Below, piece after piece: positions 243 to 5,643 of a stretch of DNA of 48,857 bases. Made by a program: the position numbers and the translations under genes. Each line of letters opens with the position of its first letter. The first letter of the stretch is position 1. The DNA comes from Candidatus Methanocorpusculum faecipullorum. Its GTDB lineage: Archaea; Halobacteriota; Methanomicrobia; Methanomicrobiales; Methanocorpusculaceae. The notes beneath the pieces were generated by a model. It made no database searches and was not told where the DNA came from. It was given only the letters and a program-made list of their open reading frames with translations. Where the stretch lies: contig JAHLFR010000041.1 in assembly GCA_018883755.1 (NCBI GenBank), positions 1-48,857 on the forward strand, read 5' to 3'.

Positions 243-950
243 TTATTCCGGGAAATATGGGCACGTTTCCTTCAGACATTCACGATTTCTTTGGGAAAAG
301 ATACACTGAGGTTTTCTTTGCCATTCCATTGCAATACCGGTGTGTTCCCGCATAAACCGAACTGTTGTCTCAAGAGCAAGATATGTGTCGCGTTTACAGC
401 AGCGCGGCCCTCCGTGACTGCCAATTGCAGTAAGACATGCTGCAGTTAGTAGCTGGGCATCTCTCCAAGTTTCTTTGCTCAGGGGATTTGTTTTCGTTAC
501 AATGGAGTAAAACATCCCTGCGCTGATCGCAGCCCCACAGGTTCCTGCAAGTCCGCAGAATCCACCCGGGATCATTGTACCGCGGCGAAGCATCTCCTCT
601 ACTGCTGTGGGAAGATCCAGTTCTCCTCCTGCATTCCGATACGCTGCAAGAAGTGAGGCTCCTGCCAAGATGTGGTGTTCGGGTCCGTGCATATGTACAG
701 CGGGACTCTTCATCATTGCCGTTGCAATTACAAACGGATCTTTTTCTGATGCTGCCAATGCAATACTACGGATTACCACTGCTGCAGGGGTTGAGTGGCA
801 GTCATCACAGACAAAGTGACCGTGAATACACTCCGCATTGCTGAGGCAGATTTTTCCACAAATAGCACAGGTCATCTCGCGCGCACATTCAAGGTACCGG
901 AGAGGGGCCCCGCAGATGAGGCAGGCAGGTTCTGTTGAATCATTTTGCAT
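243..950 (-). CDS. DUF5714 domain protein, cysteine-rich
   Basis: This 235-residue soluble protein begins with a paired zinc-ribbon-like region (CLICG about residue 10, CAICGKICL about 28, CDDCH about 49). A conserved alpha-helical domain follows with GGFCGLAGTCGAAISAGMFYSI near the middle, GGPRCCKRDTYLAL, and a C-terminal CLKETCPYFPE. The arrangement matches the DUF5714 family common in methanogens, whose biochemical role is not known to me. The abundant Cys and His suggest metal or Fe-S binding, which is inference. The gene starts 7 bases after the CSCS permease, so it is probably the last gene of the arsD-like/arsR/permease transcription unit and may act on the same metalloid or organometal. 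Confidence 0.75.
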   Translation of the reverse strand: MQNDSTEPACLICGAPLRYLECAREMTCAICGKICLSNAECIHGHFVCDDCHSTPAAVVIRSIALAASEKDPFVIATAMMKSPAVHMHGPEHHILAGASLLAAYRNAGGELDLPTAVEEMLRRGTMIPGGFCGLAGTCGAAISAGMFYSIVTKTNPLSKETWRDAQLLTAACLTAIGSHGGPRCCKRDTYLALETTVRFMREHTGIAMEWQRKPQCIFSQRNRECLKETCPYFPE

Positions 951-957
951 TTTTGCA

Positions 958-1842
958 TCACCAAGTTATTATCTGAAGGATACAGCCAGTGAGTACGGCT
1001 GAAGCAAATATCATTATCACAAATACACCCACAAGTTTCTTTTCAAATATTGCAGATAGCATAGTGATTTCTGGAATACTCATCCCGGCACCTCCAATAA
1101 GGAGGGCAGCAACCGTTCCGGTACCCATCCCTTTCTCAAGAAAGACTGCTGCGATAGGTAGTATTGTTTCTGCCCGGATGTATAAAGGGATCCCAATGAG
1201 TGCAGCTATTGGAATTGCAAAGATATTCTCCGGGCCTGCTGCTGCCAATACCCAGTCTGAGGGAAGAAATCCATAGATGAATGCCCCGATACCTGCTCCC
1301 AGCAGAAGATACGGCAACATTTGCCGGAAAATGGTGAGTGCGAAGTTGACAATCTGCTGAAACTTTGTACCAGCTTGATCTATCCCACCCTCAACAGCAA
1401 CTGGTTTGAGATATTTCCGGTATCCTGCGCGTTCCAAAATAAGACCGATTCCCACAGCAAAGACAAACATAATCACTGCATAGACAACAGTAATTATTGG
1501 TCCGAAAATGACCAACATCATTGCTAAAATTATAGGATTTAGTAATGGGGAGGCAAATAGAAATGACATCGAACTTGAAAATGCGACCCCGGATTTCAAA
1601 AAGCCAAGCGTGATTGGGATGGTGGAACAAGAACAGAATGGTGTGAGTGCACCAAATGCTGCCCCAAACATGCTTCCTGCTACGCTCCCTGTATTTCCAA
1701 GCACTCGCTGCATTGTACGCGGTGAAACGTACACCTGTAATACTCCCACGAACAAACTGACTACAACAAAAAGAAGTACCAGTTCTGCTGTAATGATGAG
1801 AAAATACTCTCCAGCAGAAACTAATGTGTCGGCAAGACTCAT
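958..1842 (-). CDS. DUF318/ArsP-type permease
   Basis: This is an integral membrane protein of 294 residues with about eight hydrophobic segments. It has the diagnostic TPFCSCSTIPI motif near residue 68, and a related GIPLYIRAE repeat region in the second half. It belongs to the predicted permease family PF03773. Members include ArsP, which exports trivalent organoarsenicals, and YraQ-like proteins of unknown substrate. Its start codon overlaps the stop of the 41-residue CCCC peptide (ATGA), and that peptide is coupled to arsR, so expression should follow the ArsR repressor. Metalloid or organometal efflux is inferred from family plus context; the exact substrate cannot be read from sequence. 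Confidence 0.85.
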   Translation of the reverse strand: MSLADTLVSAGEYFLIITAELVLLFVVVSLFVGVLQVYVSPRTMQRVLGNTGSVAGSMFGAAFGALTPFCSCSTIPITLGFLKSGVAFSSSMSFLFASPLLNPIILAMMLVIFGPIITVVYAVIMFVFAVGIGLILERAGYRKYLKPVAVEGGIDQAGTKFQQIVNFALTIFRQMLPYLLLGAGIGAFIYGFLPSDWVLAAAGPENIFAIPIAALIGIPLYIRAETILPIAAVFLEKGMGTGTVAALLIGGAGMSIPEITMLSAIFEKKLVGVFVIMIFASAVLTGCILQIITW

Positions 1843-1964
1843 TTAGTGTTCTCCTCTTTGTTATCCTCAGACGTCTCAGGTACAATTTTAATATTGCAGC
1901 AACAGCATTGTTCTCCGGTAACAGCTTTTTTCAACTTTTTAAAAATCCCTTTTTCTTCTTTCAT
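1839..1964 (-). CDS. 41-residue CCCC microprotein in the ars-like cassette
   Basis: A complete small frame starts at ATG 1964-1962 and stops at TGA 1841-1839. The product is lysine-rich at the start (MKEEKGIFKKLKKAVTGEQ), then carries four consecutive cysteines (residues 20-23, CCCCNIKI) and an acidic tail (ETSEDNKEENTK). Its ATG overlaps the arsR stop (ATGA), and its stop overlaps the permease ATG (ATGA). This double coupling is strong evidence that it is translated. It resembles in layout the small vicinal-cysteine metal-binding proteins found in metalloid resistance loci. A metalloid or thiophilic-metal shuttle handing cargo to the permease is my inference. Confidence 0.8.
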   Translation of the reverse strand: MKEEKGIFKKLKKAVTGEQCCCCNIKIVPETSEDNKEENTK

Positions 1965-2308
1965 GGCGAATCACCCGTGGTTGTATGTTTACATCCGTCT
2001 GCTACAGTGCAGGTTTCCAGCCGTTTTCTATCTTCTGCATAGAGGGGATCTTCGGAAAATGTTCGTGAAAGATACTGGTACAGTTCCGGAGGCAGCATTT
2101 CGCTGATTTTGTAGTATGCCCACTGTGCCTGCTTTCTCCCGGAGAGTACTCCTGCATTTTTGAGAATGGTCAAATGTCGTGATGCATTTGATTGAGAGAG
2201 ATTCAGGACTTCCATAATCTCACAGACACACAGTTCACGTTTCATTACCAGACTAACCATACGAAGTCTTGTTCTGTCACTCAGAGCTTTGAATATCTGT
2301 TCAGTCAT
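1961..2308 (-). CDS. arsR: ArsR/SmtB-family metalloid-responsive repressor
   Basis: This is a 115-residue winged-helix repressor. The sequence MTEQIFKALSDRTRLRMVSLVMKRELCVCEI contains the ELCVCE motif at about residues 25-30, the classic As(III)/Sb(III) site of the ArsR alpha3 helix. The recognition helix LSQSNASRHLTILKNAGVL follows. A second cysteine pair (CTVADGC, about residues 99-105) may add ligands. Such proteins leave DNA on metalloid binding. Its ATG overlaps the stop of the ArsD-like gene, and its own stop overlaps the CCCC peptide start. The likely operator is the dyad at 2669-2690 upstream of the operon. Confidence 0.92.
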   Translation of the reverse strand: MTEQIFKALSDRTRLRMVSLVMKRELCVCEIMEVLNLSQSNASRHLTILKNAGVLSGRKQAQWAYYKISEMLPPELYQYLSRTFSEDPLYAEDRKRLETCTVADGCKHTTTGDSP

Positions 2309-2652
2309 ACTATTTTCTCCTCTCGGTTACACCCTTGAATACAACAGCATCCTTCATTTTTTTCTGCAATGAGGCTGGCAGGAACTGTAAGGATCTGGCG
2401 TATTTCCTCGTTGGACGGGTAACGTCCTGTAATCATTGCAAAACCGTCTACTAGTGTTATTGGGCAAATCTGTTTGCCATGTGTCGTGATCAGCTTCTCT
2501 ACTGTGTGATTCTCCTGAAATTTTTTTGGAGAGGTTCTCTGATTATACCGCTCAATACTGAATCCATGTTCTTTGAGGCGGGAAATCAACAATGTTATCC
2601 GCATATTTTCAGGGTCTGATGCTGATGGTGTTTTTGTTTCAAAGATTTCCAT
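2305..2652 (-). CDS. ArsD-like metallochaperone, first gene of the cassette
   Basis: The 115-residue protein aligns by eye with ArsD: a thioredoxin-like fold with KEHGFSIERYNQRTSPKKFQ, a conserved central strand CPITLVDGFAMITGRYPSNEEI, and a cysteine cluster near the C-terminus (GCCCIQGC, about residues 100-107). ArsD carries As(III) to the ArsA pump ATPase and is a weak repressor. The usual N-terminal CC...C arsenic site is absent; that region reads FETKTPSASDPENM. I chose ATG 2652 because GGTGA lies just before it; an in-frame ATG exists at 2661. The stop overlaps the arsR start. No arsA is visible, so the partner may be the permease or the CCCC peptide. Confidence 0.75.
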   Translation of the reverse strand: MEIFETKTPSASDPENMRITLLISRLKEHGFSIERYNQRTSPKKFQENHTVEKLITTHGKQICPITLVDGFAMITGRYPSNEEIRQILTVPASLIAEKNEGCCCIQGCNREEKIV

Positions 2653-2668
2653 CTTCACCATAAATCAT

Positions 2669-5570: not shown

Positions 5571-5643
5571 AGCCTCAGGCGAGATTTGAACTCGCGACCT
5601 CGTCCTTACCAAGGACGCGCTATGCCGGCTAAGCCACTGAGGC
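5571..5643 (-). tRNA. tRNA-Thr (anticodon GGU)
   Basis: On the minus strand the acceptor arms GCCTCAG and CTGAGGC pair perfectly. The anticodon stem CGTCC/GGACG encloses loop TTGGTAA, giving anticodon GGT. The T-arm is TCGCGAGTTCAAATCTCGC-like. The 3' end T is followed by a T-run (plus-strand AAAAAA at about 5565-5571), a natural terminator. CCA is not encoded. A TATA-like GTTTAAATC lies upstream at about 5676-5684. Confidence 0.95.

Follow-up and report, generated by a model that had tools for sequence, protein, structure and literature searches.

Vicinal cysteines, soft metals and ArsP-type permeases

Within ars operons, ArsD (PF06953, NF033727) is a small cytosolic protein with vicinal cysteines that hands arsenite to its partner, the ArsA ATPase. 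It is about 110-120 residues long and has a thioredoxin-like fold. The HMA-type copper chaperones (CopZ/Atx1) are likewise small, and they deliver a soft metal to an exporter by cysteine exchange, using an MxCxxC motif in a protein of about 70 residues with a ferredoxin-like fold. Bacterial and archaeal metallothioneins are also short, cysteine-bearing proteins.

After ACR3 and ArsB, permeases of the ArsP type rank among the most common arsenic transporters. Members of ArsP cluster 2 carry TPF before a C(S/T)C motif and do not have the HVxxCLVPAFFIAG motif; the C(S/T)C motif has been proposed to act in transport (PMC4435449). The ArsP of C. jejuni exports the trivalent organoarsenicals methylarsenite and trivalent roxarsone and does not export arsenite (PMC6205960).

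The locus described here encodes a cysteine-bearing microprotein beside a permease of this type. ArsD offers a model of how it might work, although the microprotein belongs to a family with members of 34-60 residues, has an ArsP_1 permease as its partner, and matches neither PF06953 nor NF033727 at E values up to 10. It differs from CopZ/Atx1 in having CC instead of MxCxxC and in being, at 41 residues, probably mostly unfolded. Unlike a metallothionein, it has 4 cysteines among 41 residues, all in one cluster, with no cysteine-dense CxC/CxxC arrays, and no metallothionein family matches it.

The ars-like cassette

The stretch of DNA analyzed (the window) is 48,857 nucleotides from Candidatus Methanocorpusculum faecipullorum, and the features given below lie on its minus strand. 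An ArsD-like protein (2305..2661) with a C-terminal EGCCCIQGC matches PF06953 at 77.9 bits (cut-off 27); its NF033727 score, 63 bits, is under the 90-bit equivalog cut-off. A 4-base, ATGA-type overlap at 2305-2308 joins this gene to arsR (1961..2308), which encodes an ArsR/SmtB-family repressor with an ELCVCEI motif (NF033788, 89.9 bits, cut-off 55; PF01022). The microprotein gene (1839..1964) is followed by the gene (958..1842) for a 294-residue ArsP_1 permease of the cluster-2 type (PF03773, 186.8 bits, cut-off 32.3); four genes are thus chained by overlaps. The last gene of the cassette (243..950) encodes a cysteine-rich DUF5714/MbdU-like protein (PF18978, 224.5 bits; NF045648, 175 bits, under the 600-bit cut-off). 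It stands beside the permease only in the three closest loci (L002-L004) and is missing there in the others. A tRNA-Thr (GGT) gene is present at 5571-5643.

No true ArsA was found: the window's genome (G000, 80% complete) shows only 28-29-bit P-loop matches to PF02374, and the search in near-complete relatives had a similar outcome. ACR3 was looked for and not found in this genome, nor in G004, which is 99% complete. The ArsD-like protein at 2305-2661 is encoded in an operon with neither ArsA nor ArsB, and it may serve the ArsP-type permease instead.

The arsenic-related character of the operon, which had been assumed from the window, is borne out by its relatives. The island at L065 reads microprotein-permease-permease2-dom-ArsE-ArsE-DGC-ACR3-ArsC-DGC-ArsF-ArsG-microprotein, in which the ArsE-like proteins are thioredoxins, and L070 has the order ArsR-microprotein-ArsF-ArsG. 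Within the window's genus, G014 and G016 carry ACR3 after the permease, within about 0.4 kb. On bacterial plasmids, staphylococcal copies adjoin arsD and arsA, a Corynebacterium copy is followed by arsO, and a Paenibacillus copy lies beside arsN1.

The microprotein is a conserved protein

The microprotein gene encodes MKEEKGIFKKLKKAVTGEQCCCCNIKIVPETSEDNKEENTK. The ORF translation agrees with the original prediction of a 41-residue CCCC frame between arsR and the permease. A basic/hydrophobic segment (residues 5-16) precedes the four cysteines (20-23), which are followed by N-I-K-I-V-P-E and an acidic tail. The two predicted ATGA overlaps are also present: one at 1961..1964, with GGTGAT upstream, joins the arsR stop to the microprotein start, and one at 1839..1842 joins the microprotein stop to the permease start. 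A ribosome-binding-like GAGGAG lies within the KEEN codons of the microprotein, just 5' of the permease start. AlphaFold, run with four sequences, predicts a helix at residues 5-16 and no structure in the rest, at low confidence (mean pLDDT 57). An amphipathic N-terminal helix was considered and rejected, as its hydrophobic moments are no better than those of shuffled sequences. With no significant amphipathicity in this segment, its attachment to the membrane is at most a possibility.

When the codons of the four closest copies are compared in pairs, pN/pS is 0.21-0.36; purifying selection acts on the microprotein at the protein level. By tblastn, close relatives have the frame next to their permease gene at 55-79% identity, and others have related CC-motif forms there. 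The frame is thus kept, beyond chance, in related genomes with the same operon, clearly the opposite of the lack of conservation that would have refuted the initial proposal. Stops that appeared to lie inside some profile matches are in-frame stops just 5' of the start codon and do not reflect readthrough. The double overlap had been put forward as the main sign of translation. Coding itself is upheld by purifying selection and by the homologues, but the overlap does not carry the argument, as it is not conserved: the microprotein/permease ATGA is kept in most Methanocorpusculaceae copies but not outside that family, and only close relatives retain the overlap between arsR and the microprotein. 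The frame encodes a genuine protein, and its family, which has had no name, can be called the permease-linked CC microproteins.

Linkage to one permease subfamily

The distribution of the microprotein was followed by profile search in 100 relatives from the Methanomicrobiales, with the permease subfamily defined by a permease score of at least 280 bits. The microprotein occurs in 37/37 genomes with the permease subfamily and in 1/63 without it (Fisher P = 1e-26, a nominal value given the kinship among genomes; very divergent microproteins could have been missed among the 63). In the sole exception, G075, the contig ends 15 bases past the microprotein, and the pairing has no true exception in the 100-genome set. 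In a quickly built tree of 67 permeases, 4 changes, 3 of them forced by the starred branches, account for the presence of the microprotein, versus a mean of 21 for shuffled labels. Many permeases of the superfamily in this tree do without the microprotein; these are chiefly cluster-1 paralogues, long forms from proteobacteria, three forms from haloarchaeal plasmids and the members of a thioredoxin-linked group.

The window permease itself has the cluster-2 features, with TPFCSC at residues 67-72 (TPFCSCS, 67-73), no HVxxCLVPAFFIAG motif, and cysteines only at positions 70, 72 and 287; TPFCSCSTIP is invariant in the permease alignment, and permease2 of the larger islands shows the cluster-1 motif. 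SaoE (NF040736) and the SO_0444 CuZnOut permease (NF033936) belong to the same superfamily, but the window permease is a member of neither, scoring 83.1 bits versus a cut-off of 325 and 93.4 bits versus a cut-off of 300, respectively. These weak matches concern other substrates. The ArsP studied by experiment, that of C. jejuni, may belong to another cluster, so the substrate of the window permease may differ and may be copper, zinc, antimony, mercury or other organoarsenicals.

The family in archaea and bacteria

The members of the family share a core made up of a basic/hydrophobic N-terminal stretch, a vicinal CC, the sequence x-V-[KRE]-I-[VE]-[PE] and a charged tail. The position after CC-x varies (V/I/M/T), and the invariant part is the CC pair followed by x-x-[KRE]-I. 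The tetracysteine, initially taken to be the key unit, is a local form, and the unit conserved across the family is the CC pair. Nor is the family confined to the Methanomicrobiales, as had been supposed: it occurs in archaea and in bacteria, although its bacterial distribution is known from plasmids only. The plasmid hosts include Staphylococcus, Paenibacillus, Priestia, Rhodococcus, Arthrobacter, Corynebacterium and Cupriavidus; the staphylococcal protein starts MGIKDALKKLKPQEQSCCSVEIEEK and that of Rhodococcus starts MGLKDLLTGRSSKEQSDCCNVEIVPADDD. Distant matches rest on a short motif together with a shared place beside the same type of permease, and several are weak by sequence alone. Matches on Vibrio plasmids and on phages were rejected as chance, and viral contigs contain permeases with no microprotein found alongside.

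Gene order differs among these loci. Family f14 has arsR-permease-microprotein (L068), f23 and f25 have microprotein-arsR-permease (for example MSMLDRLFGGGEKDSDCCDVRIEEIDPDTDEGEA), and the plasmids have regulator-permease-microprotein. In f8 and f22 a protein of about 100 residues is encoded before arsR; its first 30 residues are the microprotein and the remainder is a second domain, described below. CC units are repeated in some members, three times in Cupriavidus P0003 and twice in L070 and Paenibacillus. Tandem repeats of two or three CC motifs were seen at L070:3489-3665, L085:4898-5167 and L145 (downstream of 2876). In several genomes the ars island carries, at its far end, an additional diverged copy of the microprotein (L065:4157-4315, after ArsG; L084, near 2914; G051:C8:92214-92366).

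The family lacks a name in the resources searched. Neither the window microprotein (no family at E up to 10) nor the bacterial members have a significant match in Pfam-A or NCBIfam, 22 archaeal members have none in NCBIfam, and no relative of the microprotein or of the permease was found by sequence in the PDB. Searches of a limited literature collection returned no description of the peptide or of its motif strings, and no accessory microprotein turned up in the ArsP literature searched. On bacterial plasmids the gene is mostly annotated as a hypothetical protein and is missing from the gene table in at least one case (Paenibacillus). Poultry, turkey, pork and poultry litter are the sources of several microprotein plasmids (from Staphylococcus, Enterococcus and Corynebacterium), which would fit the past use of organoarsenical feed additives.

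A second unnamed domain

At L009/L082 and L010/L081, in two genomes of the window's genus, the microprotein forms the C-terminal end of a 112-126-residue protein encoded directly before the permease; the L082 fusion is the same protein as that in L009. The f8 and f22 fusions contain the microprotein and the second domain in the reversed order. This second domain, of about 80 residues with the pattern VGI..LD...ADELL..VKK.NYIP....Y..AL..EY, has no match in Pfam and was observed at L081:3895-4275, L082, L118:3016-3318, L121, L127, L128 and L076:8253-8507. It also occurs alone in larger ars islands, where it follows the second ArsP_1 permease, and beside ArsE-like thioredoxins as well; this lone form has about 84 residues and a CCAAEAMRRI start of its own. 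BLAST relates the lone and fused forms at E values of 6e-8 to 6e-13, obtained with a tiny database. The two parts are fused in both orders, which argues that they act jointly.

A possible supply of cysteines in cis or in trans

Cysteine-rich, CC-bearing inserts in the central cytosolic loop, with up to eight cysteines, are frequent in ArsP_1 permeases that have no microprotein (L066, L075, L089, L130, L132, L136, L141, L142, L143, L146 and L150). The idea that any loop cysteine substitutes for the microprotein was rejected (one is present in 23/40 permeases with the microprotein and in 14/18 that lack it; P = 0.16, with just 2-4 independent pairs). A vicinal CC in the loop is present in 3/40 permeases with the microprotein versus 12/18 without it (P = 6e-6), a contrast that was picked post hoc, is confounded with a few clades and can serve as a hypothesis only. 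It is conceivable, though we think it more probably wrong than right, that a cluster-2 ArsP needs a cysteine-pair donor, which would be provided either in trans by the microprotein, as a separate protein or joined in either order to the second domain, or in cis by a CC-rich loop insert.

Proposed function and alternatives

The best reading of these data is that the unnamed family is a metallochaperone-like accessory of an already known efflux system. More specifically, we consider it somewhat better than an even chance that the microprotein is a dedicated thiolate accessory of cluster-2 ArsP_1 permeases, which would bind a soft metal(loid) and pass the ligand on for export. The cassette would presumably be derepressed through ArsR. 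The microprotein, a small accessory in the cytosol or perhaps at the membrane edge, would then use its cysteine pair to bind a soft, thiophilic metal(loid), with a trivalent arsenical (As(III) or methylarsenite) as the likeliest ligand. The ligand would be handed to the CSC pair in a transmembrane helix of the permease and exported, by analogy with the way in which ArsD gives arsenite to ArsA. The chaperone reading is favored by the 37/37 versus 1/63 co-occurrence, by the persistence of the microprotein-permease pairing when gene order is shuffled (in f14, in f22/f8/f23/f25 and on bacterial plasmids), by the few changes on the permease tree, by purifying selection, by the ars islands and by the TPFCSC that the permease keeps. 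Counted against it are the doubt over the substrate, the weak matches of the permease to models for other substrates, the ArsD-like gene already present in the operon, the many superfamily permeases that lack a microprotein, the N-terminal segment with its insignificant amphipathicity, and the weak fold prediction for the microprotein.

The cysteine pair could instead sense a metal(loid) and modulate the permease or ArsR, with no ligand carried to the pump. In the window the microprotein gene separates arsR from the permease gene, and at other loci it adjoins one of them or both; ligand binding could act as a switch on a small, flexible tail that bears a CC pair. However, the microprotein stays with the permease subfamily under PadR (L085), MarR (L145, L147) and divergent ArsR regulators; because it keeps to the permease when the regulator changes, control of ArsR is unlikely, which would leave gating of the permease, and such a sensor role as a whole appears improbable.

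We give a slightly lower probability to a structural subunit, whose N-terminal segment would pack on the permease for assembly or stability and whose cysteines would form a local disulfide or zinc knot. Such a role would account for the tight one-to-one pairing with a single permease subfamily and for the second small domain being fused to the microprotein in some loci and separate in others. Yet the part that is conserved is the CC-x-V-x-I core, whereas N-terminal segments differ in length and show no reliable amphipathicity.

Hardly different in standing, and also quite improbable, is a metallothionein-like buffer that scavenges cytosolic thiophilic metal(loid)s without contacting the permease in any special way. 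The members with repeated CC units (Cupriavidus P0003, L070 and Paenibacillus) would suit such a role, but cysteine content is low, 4 of 41 residues here and as few as 2 cysteines elsewhere, and buffering does not need so strict a linkage to one permease subfamily (37/37 versus 1/63).

Finally, a chance ORF, or a translational-coupling leader kept for its ATGA overlaps and for the ribosome-binding site of the permease, as the GAGGAG in the KEEN codons might suggest, is ruled out for practical purposes by the homologues, since selection acts on the protein, the microprotein has ribosome-binding-like sites of its own, and bacterial homologues encoded downstream of the permease cannot be leaders.

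Implications

A gene conserved in archaea and bacteria has thus gone without any Pfam or NCBIfam model. With two to four key cysteines, its product spans a range from methanogens to staphylococcal plasmids. If the tentative division into trans and cis donors were true, it would constitute a general two-part mechanism for the export of thiol-bound arsenicals across archaea and bacteria. The dedicated-accessory reading makes the microprotein a small, directly testable part in the question of how ArsP-type permeases acquire ligands that cytosolic thiols hold bound.
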